In this document: positions 33,210 through 52,556 of the stretch, one piece after another
How positions within the stretch are numbered: the first letter of the stretch is position 1
Layout of the letters: each line of letters starts with the position of its first letter
DNA from: Natrinema salsiterrestre
GTDB lineage: Archaea > Halobacteriota > Halobacteria > Halobacteriales > Natrialbaceae
Length of the DNA: 64,000 bases
Reading direction: 5' to 3'
Assembly (NCBI RefSeq): GCF_029502005.1
Contig: NZ_JAMQOT010000001.1
Location: forward strand, 992,001-1,056,000
The notes under the pieces: model-generated
Databases searched by the model: none
What the model saw: only the letters and a program-made list of their open reading frames with translations
Told to the model about the DNA's origin: nothing
Position numbers and translations under genes: made by a program

Positions 33210-33476
33210 ACGGTATGATTGCTCGGCAACGTTCTTAAATCCGTGTCCGCCCGAACAGCGAGAATCCGACCGTGGTCTCTGTCTACTGTGGCCACTACCA
33301 GATTTCCCATAGACTCGCTCTCCCGTCAGAGATAGCGGCCTCGGCACTCATAGGGCTCGTCACGACCGGATGCCGAGTCCGGCTCGGAGCGGGTGCATCG
33401 TCATCGGCCACGTGACGCTACGGTGGTCGCTCCAAAGACGGTTTGGATTCGCCAGAAATTGACGCGATGCCTCGAG

Positions 33477-36940: not shown

Positions 36941-39406
36941 ATGAGTGATTTCCCGCCGCGGACGACGATCAAGCGGTGGCTGGTGACGACCAACCACAAG
37001 GACGTCGGCGTCCTCTATCTGGGGACGGCGCTGTTCTTCCTCGTCGCCGGCGGCGTCCTCGCACTGCTGTTCCGCGCCCACCTGTGGGAGGCCGGCGGCA
37101 CCGGGCTGCTCGGCAACACCGAGTACAATCAGTCGGTCTCGATCCACGGCCTCCTGATGGTGTTCTGGTTCCTCTCCCCGTTCGGGTTCGGCTTCGCGAA
37201 CTACTTCGTCCCCTTACAGATCGGGGCGAAGGATCTGGCGTTCCCGCGGCTGAACGCGTTGAGTTACTGGTTTTACCTGTTCTCGGGCGTTCTCGTCTTG
37301 CTCTCGTTCTTCCAGGGAGTCACGTGGGCCAACGGCTGGTACATGTACGCGCCGCTGAACGTCCCGATCTACAACCCCGGCTACACGCTGACGATGGGTG
37401 GGAACACGACCATCCTCGCACTGACCCTGTTCGTCATGTCGGTCACCCTCGGCTCGGTGAACTTCCTCACGACGATCCACCGCTGCCGTGCGGAAGGCAT
37501 GGGCCTCTGGAACATGCCGCTGTTCACGTGGAGCATCCTGCTGACCGTCTGGATGATGCTGTTCGCCTTCGCGGCGCTGCTTGCGGCACTCATCCTCCTG
37601 TTGACCGACCGCCTCCTGCTGACCCAGTACTACTCCTCGACGGCGGAGGGCTCGAGCCTCCTGTGGGGTCACCTGTTCTGGTTCTTCGGGCATCCGGAGG
37701 TCTACATCGTCTTCTTCCCGTCGCTGGGGATCATGTTCGAGACGTTCCAGACCTTCTGCGGCCGACGCCTCGTCGGCCGGAAGTGGGTCATCATCGCGAT
37801 GGTCCTCGTCGCGGTGCAGTCGTTCCTCGTCTGGATGCACCACATGTTCCTGACGACGATCAATCTCCCCATCAAGACGCTCTTCATGGCGACGACGATC
37901 GGCATCTCGCTGCCCTTCGACCTGATGGTCTTCTCGCTGATCTACACGATGCTCAAGGGGCGGGTGCGCTTTACCACCCCCTTCCTGTTCAACCTCGGCG
38001 CGCTCGTCCTGTTCATCATCGGCGGCATTACCGGCGTCTTCCTCGGTGCCGTCGTACTGGACTACTCGTTCCGCGGGACCTACTGGGTCGTCGCCCACTT
38101 CCACTACGTGATGGTCGCGGGCGTCACCGCACTGATCGGCGGACTCTACTACTGGTGGCCGAAGATCACCGGGAAGATGTACTCCGAGCGACTCGGGAAG
38201 CTCAGCTTCGCCGTCTACTTCGTCGGCTTCAACCTGCTGTACTTCCCGATGTTCATCGTCTGGGAGACGCCGCGTCGCGTCTTCCACTACGGGGAGGGCG
38301 CACAGCTCTACCACCAGGCGGCGACCGTCGGGGCGTACGTGCTCGCCCTCTCGGTCCTGCTCGTCTTCGTCACCCTCGCGAAGAGTTACGCCACGGGTCC
38401 CGACGCGCCCGATAACCCGTGGGCGTACTCGCGGACCGCCGAGTGGGCGACCACCTCACCGCCCCCGCTCGAGAACTGGCCGAGCCGCCCCAGCTACGCC
38501 AGCGGGAAACTCGAGTTCGTCGACGATTCGACCGCCACCGACGGCGGTGCGGCCGCACACGAGCGCGTCGGCGAAGCCGAGTCGCTCGAGGGAGACCACG
38601 AGGATCACGCGAGCATCTGGCCCCTCGGTATCGGGTTCGGCATGTTCGTCACGTTCCTCGGACTGTCGGGGATGACCCCCTACGTCGCCGAGTTCGCCAC
38701 CGCGCGCGGCGCGGAGGTGTCGGGCGTCGGCTCGACCAACGTCCTCTATCCGGTGCTCTCGCTCGTCGGCGTCGGGATCCTCGGGTTCACGCTCTTCGAA
38801 TACGGCCGCGAGCGGTTCAACGCGCCCCAGATGGCCATCGCCGAGCGCTGGCCGTTCGAGGGCGTCGGCACGACCAAGACCGGCGTCTGGATCTTCCTGG
38901 CCTCGGACGTCGTCGTCTTCGGGGCCGTCATCGGCGCGTACGTCTTCTTGCGACTTCATACCGGCTGGGGAGAGATCGAGCCCGTGCCGCCGTCGGAGAT
39001 CATCGGTCTCGTCAACACCTACGTCCTCCTGACCTCGAGTTTCACGGTCGTCCTCGCGCTGGTGATGGCCGAACGGGAGCACAAGGGCGGGCTGCTGGCG
39101 TCGATGGGAGCCACCCTGCTACTCGGGTTCACGTTCCTCGGCGTCAAGGGCTACGAGTGGAGTCAGGAGTTCGCCCACGACATCTACTGGTTCACCGACC
39201 TCGAGTACTCGATGTACTTCGTGACGACCGGCCTTCACGCCCTCCACGTCATCCTCGGGCTGCTCATCGCCGGGTTCATGCTCTACCGCATCGCGGCCGT
39301 CGACGCCTACCTCCGGGACAGTCGACCCGTCGAGTTCTTCGGGCTCTACTGGCACTTCGTCGACATCGTCTGGGTGATCCTGTTCCCGCTGTTCTACCTC
39401 GTGTAG
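36941..39406 (+). CDS. Fused cytochrome c oxidase subunits I+III
   Basis: The ATG at 36941 follows a GGAGG site and gives 821 residues. Residues ~1-500 are subunit I. Heme-ligand H69 is in SIHG. Cu-B/heme ligands are H251 with Y255 in GHPEVY, H300/H301, and H386/H388 in AHFHYV. The D-channel Asp is D98 (GAKDLAFPR), and E253 is present. Residues ~610-821 are a subunit III-like helical domain. The K-channel segment reads GISLPFDLMVF, so the usual Lys seems to be Met (~329). No subunit II gene is adjacent. It is a membrane terminal oxidase of respiration. Confidence 0.95.
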   Translation: MSDFPPRTTIKRWLVTTNHKDVGVLYLGTALFFLVAGGVLALLFRAHLWEAGGTGLLGNTEYNQSVSIHGLLMVFWFLSPFGFGFANYFVPLQIGAKDLAFPRLNALSYWFYLFSGVLVLLSFFQGVTWANGWYMYAPLNVPIYNPGYTLTMGGNTTILALTLFVMSVTLGSVNFLTTIHRCRAEGMGLWNMPLFTWSILLTVWMMLFAFAALLAALILLLTDRLLLTQYYSSTAEGSSLLWGHLFWFFGHPEVYIVFFPSLGIMFETFQTFCGRRLVGRKWVIIAMVLVAVQSFLVWMHHMFLTTINLPIKTLFMATTIGISLPFDLMVFSLIYTMLKGRVRFTTPFLFNLGALVLFIIGGITGVFLGAVVLDYSFRGTYWVVAHFHYVMVAGVTALIGGLYYWWPKITGKMYSERLGKLSFAVYFVGFNLLYFPMFIVWETPRRVFHYGEGAQLYHQAATVGAYVLALSVLLVFVTLAKSYATGPDAPDNPWAYSRTAEWATTSPPPLENWPSRPSYASGKLEFVDDSTATDGGAAAHERVGEAESLEGDHEDHASIWPLGIGFGMFVTFLGLSGMTPYVAEFATARGAEVSGVGSTNVLYPVLSLVGVGILGFTLFEYGRERFNAPQMAIAERWPFEGVGTTKTGVWIFLASDVVVFGAVIGAYVFLRLHTGWGEIEPVPPSEIIGLVNTYVLLTSSFTVVLALVMAEREHKGGLLASMGATLLLGFTFLGVKGYEWSQEFAHDIYWFTDLEYSMYFVTTGLHALHVILGLLIAGFMLYRIAAVDAYLRDSRPVEFFGLYWHFVDIVWVILFPLFYLV

Positions 39407-42867: not shown

Positions 42868-43009
42868 GGATGAGCGAACGAACGGAGTGAGTGAGCGGTA
42901 GCGCGGAACCGCAGGTTCCGCGAACCATCCGAACGGGCGCTGCGCGCCCGTGAGGAGAAATCGGCTGGGGAGGGCGTGGCGATTCCGTGGTGCCACGGTA
43001 GCAGAACGC
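42868..43009 (+). repeat. 142-bp structured element, copy 1
   Basis: This is the plus-strand copy of an inverted pair (copy 2 at 43845-43986). It starts GGATGAGCGA and ends GCAGAACGC. Hairpin 1 is GCGGAACC-GCA-GGTTCCGC (42903-42921). The invariant spacer GAACCATCCGA follows. Hairpin 2 is ACGGGCGC-TGC-GCGCCCGT (42933-42951). The ~55-base 3' part is identical in both copies and includes the CCGTGGTGCCACGG palindrome. Confidence 0.9.
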
Positions 43010-43115: not shown

Positions 43116-43303
43116 ATTAGTTATAAGTCGATCCGCGAGAACGTTCAATCGGAGCGAGTCTCCGAACGTGTGAACGGAGGGGGCTGCATCGAAACGCCCC
43201 GGGTGTCCAAGCACCCGAGGCTCGCTTCCAAACCCGAGAGGGTCTCGAAGCATGACCGCATACATCCTACCGGGATATAAACGTCCCGCACGACAGTGGA
43301 ATC
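43116..43303 (-). ncRNA. Structured element A, candidate small RNA divergent from the zinc-ribbon gene
   Basis: Read on the minus strand, this 188-nt block aligns with 52375-52556. The first 38 bases match at 31 positions and include the TATA-like TTTATATC. Two stem-loops follow: CGGGTG-loop-CACCCG (43200-43217) and GGGGC-loop-GCCCC (43180-43200). Both copies end in CTTATAACTAAT. Indels between the copies shift the frame, so a protein is unlikely. Transcription start about 25 bases after the TATA box would begin inside the block, before the stems. Being an RNA is inferred. Confidence 0.45.
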
Positions 43304-43367
43304 AACCCTCACAACCAGCGACAGCGCCCGATCGCGGGGACCGCCCGTATCGCCGCCGGAGGCTCCA

Positions 43368-43598
43368 ATGAGCGACGAGCGCGCCGACCCCACGAGCAGC
43401 GAGCCGTCCGCCCCCACCGACGACGTGCCGTACTCGCTCGAGCGGGCGCGGGAGCGCTTCGACCCCGCACTCCCCGACTGCCCCCTCTGTGGCACCCCCA
43501 TCTGGGCCGTCTCGGTTATCGGCCCGCTCGAGGCCAGCGCCGCCCCCTGCGGCTGTACGGTCACGCCCGGTCTCCTCGAGACCGACCGCGAGTACTGA
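43368..43598 (+). CDS. Small CPxCG-type zinc-ribbon protein
   Basis: The ATG at 43368 has a GGAGG ribosome-binding site five bases upstream (43358-43362), unusual in a genome of mostly leaderless genes. The 76 residues end in a zinc ribbon: CPLCGTPIWAVSVIG, then APCGCTVTPG (CPLC plus CGC). An acidic N-terminus precedes a PYSLERARERFDP helix. Similar small haloarchaeal zinc-ribbon proteins have regulatory roles. It is divergent from element A. A broken relative is at 52145-52311 beside element B. Confidence 0.75.
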   Translation: MSDERADPTSSEPSAPTDDVPYSLERARERFDPALPDCPLCGTPIWAVSVIGPLEASAAPCGCTVTPGLLETDREY

Positions 43599-43844: not shown

Positions 43845-43986
43845 GCGTTCTGCTACCGTGGCACCACGGAATCGCCACGCCCTCCCCAGCCGATTTCTAC
43901 TCACGGACGCTTCGCGTCCGTTCGGATGGTTCGCGGGACCATCGGTCCCGCGCTAACGCTCGGTCGCGTCGCTCCCTCGCTCATCC
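43845..43986 (-). repeat. 142-bp structured element, copy 2 (inverted)
   Basis: This is the minus-strand copy, exactly the length of copy 1 and alignable without gaps. Hairpin 1 has stem GCGGGACC/GGTCCCGC (43933-43951). Hairpin 2 has stem ACGGACGC/GCGTCCGT (43903-43921). Relative to copy 1, each stem differs by one base pair changed on both arms; the loops differ freely. Outside the 142 bases the flanks do not match. Confidence 0.9.
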
Positions 43987-52144: not shown

Positions 52145-52311
52145 TTACTCGGAATCGGGCGACTCGAGCGCGCCCGGTGCGACCCGGCAGCCACACGGCG
52201 CGACGACGGCGGTGATCGGCCCGCTGGTGGCCGTCATCGTCGCCGGATTCCCGCAGCCGGGACAGGCGGGAAGCGCACCGGTGCGGCCGAATCGGCGTCG
52301 TCAGCAGGCAT
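52145..52311 (-). pseudogene. Frameshifted zinc-ribbon gene, relative of the gene at 43368
   Basis: The ATG at 52311 with a GGAGG site starts MPADDADSAAPV. The zinc ribbon ALPACPGCGNPATMTATSG, then APCGCRVAPG, lies in another frame and ends at the TAA at 52145-52147. The 167-nt span is not a multiple of three, and the ribbon frame has a stop and no start upstream. Compared with the intact gene, the PYSLERARERFDP segment is missing. It looks like a decayed copy by deletion plus frameshift. Confidence 0.65.
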
Positions 52312-52374
52312 GTGGCCTCCGACGGATGAGACGCGAGAGTGCGGGTTTCACCGCTGTTGCTCCGCGTAAGAGGC

Positions 52375-52556
52375 GATACGACAGTCGTGCGGGACGGTTA
52401 TATCTCGGTGAGATGTACGGAATCACGGCTTCGACCTGCACCGATGGAAGCCACGTCTCGGGTGCTCTAACACCCGGGGCATTTCGGCGCATGCCCCCTG
52501 CGGCGGAGTGGAGCGTCGCTTCCGTTCTAATCGTTGCGAGCGGACTTATAACTAAT
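52375..52556 (+). ncRNA. Structured element B, candidate small RNA
   Basis: This is the plus-strand relative of element A. It has the same 38-base start with TATA-like GTTATATC, two stem-loops, and a CTTATAACTAAT end. The stem-loops are CGGGTG-loop-CACCCG (52459-52476) and GGGGCAT-loop-ATGCCCC (52476-52497). The second stem is longer than in A because both arms changed. It lies 63 bp from the start of the frameshifted zinc-ribbon gene; the gap in the A copy is 64 bp. Confidence 0.45.

Follow-up and report, generated by a model that had tools for sequence, protein, structure and literature searches.

A gene for a small zinc-ribbon protein in Natrinema salsiterrestre lies back to back with a short element that resembles a structured RNA. 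The arrangement raises the questions of what the element is, which strand it would be read from, and how it bears on the gene beside it. The locus lies in a 64,000-nucleotide stretch of contig NZ_JAMQOT010000001.1, and this whole stretch is referred to here as the window. The original prediction described positions 43116-43598 as a zinc-ribbon gene paired with a structured element, forming a module present twice in the window.

Distribution of the element

The alignment of the two window copies was as described, and their near-identical start is real. The two elements (approximately 43116-43304 on the minus strand and 52366-52556 on the plus strand) are not a special pair of loci, however, but members of one large family. 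When copy 1 was used as a BLASTN query against its own genome, 25 matches were obtained at E < 1e-12, and a consensus query gave 28, far from a module present twice. Within the genus Natrinema, 27 of 29 genomes had matches, with 1 to 28 copies apiece. A covariance model trained on 18 copies (R1) matched copy 1 at 43178-43260 (minus strand, 79.6 bits) and copy 2 at 52418-52498 (plus strand, 59.6 bits). In a search of the Halobacteria, R1 had matches in 111 of 391 genomes, representing 50 of 86 genera; its E-values are approximate, and some isolated matches with the lowest scores may be due to chance. Distant members were found in Haladaptatus (many copies, on the chromosome and on plasmids), Halalkalicoccus, Halorussus, Halocatena, Actinarchaeum, and others. 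Two nonhalobacterial matches (L155 and L168; 23 to 25 bits, E of 3e-4 to 9e-4 within a preselected set) were judged to be chance. Rfam holds no family for the element; the only Rfam match in the window is an sR-tMet C/D box RNA (RF02163) elsewhere, at 33337-33409.

Relatives are also carried by plasmids and temperate viruses. A DNA-similarity search of phages returned no matches, and the viral relatives emerged only via synteny. On a plasmid of Natrinema sp. SYSU A 869 (NZ_CP082247.1, position 465787) and in NC_015667.1 (position 37111), the gene tables list no gene at the place of the zinc-ribbon open reading frame (ORF), and the short genes of the module may often go unannotated. Many of the copies in Halocatena pleomorpha (G376; L120, L129, L147, L171, and L180) lie at contig ends, which suggests that near-identical repeats surround the module in that genome.

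The zinc-ribbon gene recurs with the element

Both components of the predicted locus were confirmed. The zinc-ribbon gene occupies 43368-43598 on the plus strand, has a GGAGG site at 43358-43362, and encodes an acidic protein of 76 residues with the pattern CPLCG...PCGC; the element recognized by R1 faces away from it. In an alignment of 47 zinc-ribbon sequences, C38, C41, P60, C61, and C63 are invariant. The family is under purifying selection (pN/pS of 0.40, pooled from two species between which pS for the gene is 0.21). Comparison of the protein with Pfam, NCBIfam, PHROGs, and PADLOC gave nothing above the cutoff. At the second locus, 52145-52556, the element recurs as had been claimed, but an intact zinc-ribbon gene does not. 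The gene (52145-52311, minus strand) is frameshifted, and its CPGCG frame lacks a start and is interrupted upstream by a TGA; the orthologue in the sister genome G019 (L223) is intact.

All 25 copies in the genome of the window have a back-to-back CPxCG...PCGC ORF of approximately 50 to 100 amino acids, 23 of them intact, 1 frameshifted, and 1 decayed. It is the only gene that recurs consistently among the 25 neighborhoods, the next commonest gene clusters being present at 5 loci. HalOD1 genes, to which attention had been drawn because they lie near both window copies, showed no recurrence in these neighborhoods; their association was rejected, and we regard the proximity as a coincidence. The association with the zinc-ribbon gene also holds in other haloarchaea, since a divergent zinc-ribbon ORF was found at 100 of 110 distinct Natrialbaceae elements. 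A second zinc ribbon (CxxC..GWWLCDDC) lies downstream of the first at 16 of the 110 (for example, L018 and L041). At L015 and its orthologue L226, the zinc gene has decayed in both species, yet the two RNAs share 96% identity and their loops have hardly changed, which sets them apart from most orthologous pairs.

A basic ORF precedes the zinc-ribbon gene

The original prediction argued for RNA rather than protein. This is correct for the element's own strand but overlooked a basic ORF on the opposite strand, adjoining the element. In copy 1, the ORF spans 43252-43371 (plus strand) and encodes a 39-amino-acid basic peptide, MTAYILPGYKRPARQWNQPSQPATAPDRGDRPYRRRRLQ, and its stop overlaps the ATG of the zinc-ribbon gene. 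In copy 2, it spans 52301-52426 (minus strand), with 41 codons and a GTG start that is ATG in the orthologue. The ORF is mostly 33 to 41 codons long, begins MxxYILPGYKRPAR..., and has a median net charge of +7. Of 106 family copies, 103 keep its frame open across 33 codons, whereas the other frames are open in 11 and 0; the distance from its stop to the zinc-ribbon start is +1 to +14 nt in 98 of 99 cases. Selection on the ORF is weak (pN/pS of 0.67), and therefore the frame and the stop-start overlap are the strongest argument for it. Neither protein of the operon matched a known family in database profile searches.

The conserved CATG at the 5' end of the element is the start codon of this ORF on the opposite strand, and so the palindrome that had been noted as a TATA-containing start partly encodes PGYKRP. 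The palindrome is indeed promoter-like, but it also belongs to the coding sequence of the ORF that had been missed.

The folded RNA and its strand

The copy 1 RNA is placed at 43150-43251 on the minus strand, with a predicted +1 at 43251 and a 3' end near 43150, the ends being taken from the spacing of the AT boxes. It comprises hairpin HP1 (43224-43251), hairpin HP2 (43196-43221, with the loop CTTGGA at 43206-43211), and a 3' hairpin that includes strand c (43150-43164). The copy 2 RNA lies at 52427-52523 on the plus strand, with a predicted +1 at 52427 and an HP2 loop, CTCTAA, that is the same in the orthologue L223. Natrialbaceae RNAs share a sequence-conserved hairpin, CTCGGGTG..CACCCGGGGC.

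The copy 1 RNA folds with z = -3.67, and fold energy alone did not separate the strands (z of about -3.2 and -3.7). The strands were separated by noncanonical pairs in HP2: in 151 copies, G.U occurs 217 times and A.C once, as counted in a separate best-hairpin search that favors pairs and treats mismatch types alike except for G.U. This asymmetry assigns the fold to the strand that runs away from the zinc gene, and an RNA on the zinc-gene strand was rejected. Covariation was assessed in 80 distinct R1-matched sequences, mostly from outside the Natrialbaceae, in an alignment that was fitted to R1 and hence is biased towards the model. It contained 168 double-change cells, against 49 ± 7.6 after shuffling, and none of 500 shuffles reached 168. 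In the same 80 sequences, pairing was 96% in the true register and 42 to 51% in slid registers. A structured RNA with hairpins on the strand originally named is therefore upheld. The alternative that the element is a protein-coding gene on its own strand was rejected by the covariation, the G.U count, and the pattern of indels.

The conserved RNA fold is possibly bistable. Segment alpha (GUCUC) can pair with beta (GGGGC), extending HP2, or with a downstream segment, delta (GAGAC), in which case beta pairs with gamma (GCCCC). Similarly, the 3' arm of HP1 (b) has two alternative partners, a and c, the latter a copy lying downstream. Comparison with a between-sequence permutation gave, for the distant group, z values of 10.0 (a:b), 11.1 (alpha:beta), 9.0 (alpha:delta), 3.3 (beta:gamma), and 7.1 (b:c), which are upper bounds, as relatedness is ignored. 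In the Natrialbaceae group, where variation is lower, only a:b and beta:gamma clearly beat permutation. Minimum-energy folding puts window copy 1 in the first state (alpha:beta) and the Haladaptatus-type L104 in the second. Mutually exclusive pairings with covariation support are what might be expected of an attenuator, in which the element would be the leader of a downstream gene and the alternative pairings its switch, and a winged-helix gene does follow the RNA in Haladaptatus. The Natrialbaceae copies have no recurring downstream gene, and we consider an attenuator very improbable.

Predicted promoters place the RNA across the mRNA leader

Two AT boxes flank the RNA, and both promoters are predictions read from these boxes only. 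The first lies 21 to 27 nt before the conserved CAT in both groups, strongly AT rich in the Natrialbaceae and weaker in the distant group. In copy 1, it lies within the palindrome CGGGATATAAACGTCCCG (43271-43288), which contains a TATA-like box (TTTATA on the minus strand) about 27 nt from the RNA +1; its counterpart in copy 2 is CGGGACGGTTATATCTCG (52390-52407). The palindrome is compensated in L029/L030 (CGAGAC..GTCTCG). The second box, 24 to 30 nt past strand c, is strong in both groups. In copy 1, it corresponds to a predicted TATA box (TTATAAG, 43121-43127, plus strand) of the operon mRNA, which would start near 43149, and in copy 2 to a predicted TATA box of that mRNA at 52545-52551 (minus strand). 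The two copies do share CTTATAACTAAT, which had been taken for the end of the element; a better reading is an opposite-strand TATA box for the mRNA of the gene itself.

If the first box acts as a TATA box, the RNA +1 would be the base after CAT, one base before the opposing start codon; if the second does, the operon mRNA would start at the RNA 3' end. From these two predicted start positions, the RNA would be complementary to the entire leader, which in copy 1 would span 43149-43251 (plus strand).

The abutting arrangement extends to the distant loci, where the neighbor gene starts at that CAT in 53 of 62 cases counted by hand and encodes a SWIM or other zinc protein. On the other side, most Haladaptatus copies have a winged-helix gene following the RNA. 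At L066 and L103, a winged-helix gene and a PIN-domain-like gene come after the RNA as a VapBC-like pair.

The predicted layout is that of T_ant of phage phiH

The original prediction knew of no description of such a module. This overlooked the antisense pair T_ant/T1 of Halobacterium phage phiH, which has the same layout and whose neighbor gene has orthologues that adjoin the RNA in viruses SNJ2 and BJ1. The pair was described by Stolt and Zillig in 1993 (cited in PMC6210493 and PMC4284463); the account given here follows the annotated phiH record and reviews. T_ant was the first antisense RNA described in haloarchaea (PMC6210493), and its pairing with T1 makes T1 a substrate for host RNases (reviewed in PMC4284463). 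In the phiH1 record, T_ant starts at 38732 (minus strand), the opposing gene has its ATG at 38733 (plus strand), and T1 starts at 38582 (plus strand). T_ant and its phiCh1 homologue resemble the RNAs predicted here in being 100 to 150 nt long, with a 5' end one base before the first start codon of the opposing transcript, a 3' end at the start of that transcript, and an AT box just beyond, both ends being predicted in our case. The closing pairing of the RNA's two ends (b:c) is kept as well, with covariation between phiH and phiCh1 (GAGCAGG/CCTGCTC and GAGCAAG/CTTGCTC).

The gene opposite T_ant, encoding a PadR-like protein, belongs to one family (phrog_4278) with BJ1 gp21 and SNJ2 gp03, and both SNJ2 and BJ1 carry the RNA in the gap next to this gene. 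In BJ1, the gap between gp21 and a winged-helix gene contains CATGG, HP1, HP2 with the loop CUCCAA, and the AT box; in SNJ2, R1 gives a weak match (13.2 bits) in the corresponding gap. The winged-helix protein next to the distant copy L103 is a relative of phiH Imm (33% identity, E = 1e-7), although another winged-helix protein tested showed no detectable relation to Imm. As R1 had no matches in phiH1 or BJ1 and only the weak one in SNJ2, the proposed tie to T_ant is homology by position and architecture and not by sequence. We propose that the element works like T_ant; common descent with it is no more than likely.

The Natrialbaceae copies differ from T_ant in their number, which reaches about 28 in a genome, and in their location on plasmids as well as chromosomes; they oppose a basic-peptide and zinc-ribbon operon and have the hairpin described above, which T_ant lacks. 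They also have no adjoining repressor or Imm-type gene and no phrog_4278 neighbor, which counts against a T_ant-type reading.

Loops change rapidly and modules come and go

In 12 orthologous or probably orthologous pairs from genomes G000 and G019, the HP2 stem differed at 1 of 240 positions and the loop at 25 of 80, with the zinc-gene pS of 0.21 as a yardstick. The loop was unchanged in six pairs and largely replaced in five, and the upper part of HP1 is likewise exchanged, with compensation. In Actinarchaeum halophilum, two near-identical copies about 4.3 kb apart (L106 and L123) have completely different HP2 loops (TTTGTGG and CGCCAA) and almost no other difference. Within one genome, 24 of 25 loops are distinct. 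The single coincidence in 581 within-genome pairs is about what loop composition predicts, which does not point to avoidance of shared loops, and insulation between copies is put forward as a hypothesis only.

Loops that track invaders would be expected if the RNAs acted in trans as an immunity repertoire against plasmids and viruses with the same leader, much as T_ant protects a phiH lysogen. The wholesale loop replacement in orthologues and in the L106/L123 duplicates fits this idea, as does the presence of relatives on plasmids and temperate viruses. Matching targets were not identified, however; an antisense RNA always fits its own leader, so that insulation or a lack of constraint also explains loop change, and loop coincidences are near the composition expectation. 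We consider such a repertoire unlikely.

For about 10 modules of G000, there is an orthologous copy in G019 between flanks that match on both sides. At two further sites that were tested, G019 lacks the module, as do G010 and G017 at one of the two; the occupied and empty sites measure 1,005 versus 239 bp and 1,102 versus 219 and 82 bp. Tandem copies lie about 475 to 494 bp apart in three genomes. The whole copy 1 module is flanked by a 142-nt inverted repeat (42868-43009 and 43845-43986; 87% complementary, with 835 nt between the arms), and modules L018 and L022 have comparable repeats next to them; the repeat flanking copy 1 may belong to a dispersed repeat family, distinct from the module, that occurs near such sites. 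Dispersed copies, absence at the two orthologous sites, and the long inverted repeats would suit a nonautonomous mobile element or the end of an insertion sequence. Clean transposon-type borders were not found at module sites, though, and there were no terminal inverted repeats of the module itself, target duplications, or associated transposase to indicate the IS200/IS605 or other insertion-sequence end that had been raised as an alternative. The matching flanks of the approximately 10 shared modules also speak against mobility, and selection on the zinc gene and the fold already largely excludes it, leaving it scarcely credible. Of the explanations first offered, a regulator with its own RNA and a toxin-antitoxin locus come close to the best one, whereas the mobile unit has only presence/absence polymorphism behind it.

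Proposed function of the module

The module is probably a dispersed cis-antisense module of the T_ant type that would control the basic-peptide and zinc-ribbon operon. The sequence itself shows the family with its strand and fold, the covariation, the association with the genes, the positions of the boxes, the overlap of the ORFs, and synteny with phiH-type viruses; production of the two RNAs, their pairing, and its outcome are inferred. One promoter would yield an mRNA whose leader of about 100 nt precedes the sequences for the basic peptide (mostly 33 to 41 amino acids) and then the acidic zinc-ribbon protein. A promoter on the opposite strand, near the first start codon, would yield the folded RNA, which would extend back as far as the site where the mRNA begins. 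Pairing of this RNA with the leader, probably initiated at the exposed hairpin loops, would block translation or make the leader accessible to RNase, in the way reported for T_ant and T1 of phiH. The RNA also maintains a fold of its own, conserved G.U pairs included; simple antisense pairing would not need this, and it counts against an antisense reading.

In plasmid copy-control systems such as ColE1 RNAI/RNAII and IncFII CopA/CopT, conserved stems are combined with fast-changing loops that could set pairing specificity. The present family has the same combination; unlike those systems, it has no downstream replication gene, and its target would be a two-ORF operon.

The same RNA mechanism with an addiction function added would make the module an archaeal toxin-antitoxin locus, in which the basic peptide or the zinc ribbon would be toxic and the antisense RNA, with or without the acidic partner, would restrain the toxin. 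A small peptide with a median net charge of +7, stop-start coupled to an acidic protein, is consistent with this, as are the many, tandem, and decayed copies, the presence or absence of modules between species, and the HTH and PIN genes downstream in Halalkalicoccus and at L103. Type I systems of the hok/sok and bsrG/SR4 kind likewise have small coupled ORFs under an antisense RNA, here predicted to overlap fully, several paralogous copies, and competing folds. They differ in that our operon contains a second, zinc-binding protein and in that the peptide is basic and not of the small hydrophobic type given as usual for type I toxins (PMC6563280). Neither protein matches a known family. Toxicity is hypothetical, and we regard a toxin-antitoxin function as possible but doubtful.

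We suggest more tentatively that the Natrialbaceae modules, as many as 28 per genome, could be toxin-antitoxin-like loci under antisense-RNA control, the first of this kind in archaea (or else an antisense immunity repertoire), with loops diversifying so that each RNA recognizes only its own message. The modules bear on the question of such loci existing in archaea. The isolated halovirus antisense RNA of 1993 now looks like a large, fast-changing, class-wide family with members on plasmids and in temperate viruses and with an expansion in Natrialbaceae genomes, where dozens of copies lie opposite an undescribed basic-peptide and zinc-ribbon operon. Archaeal antisense control thereby becomes testable with many natural replicates within one cell, and the contrast between loops and stems is a natural experiment in how paralogous antisense RNAs stay apart.
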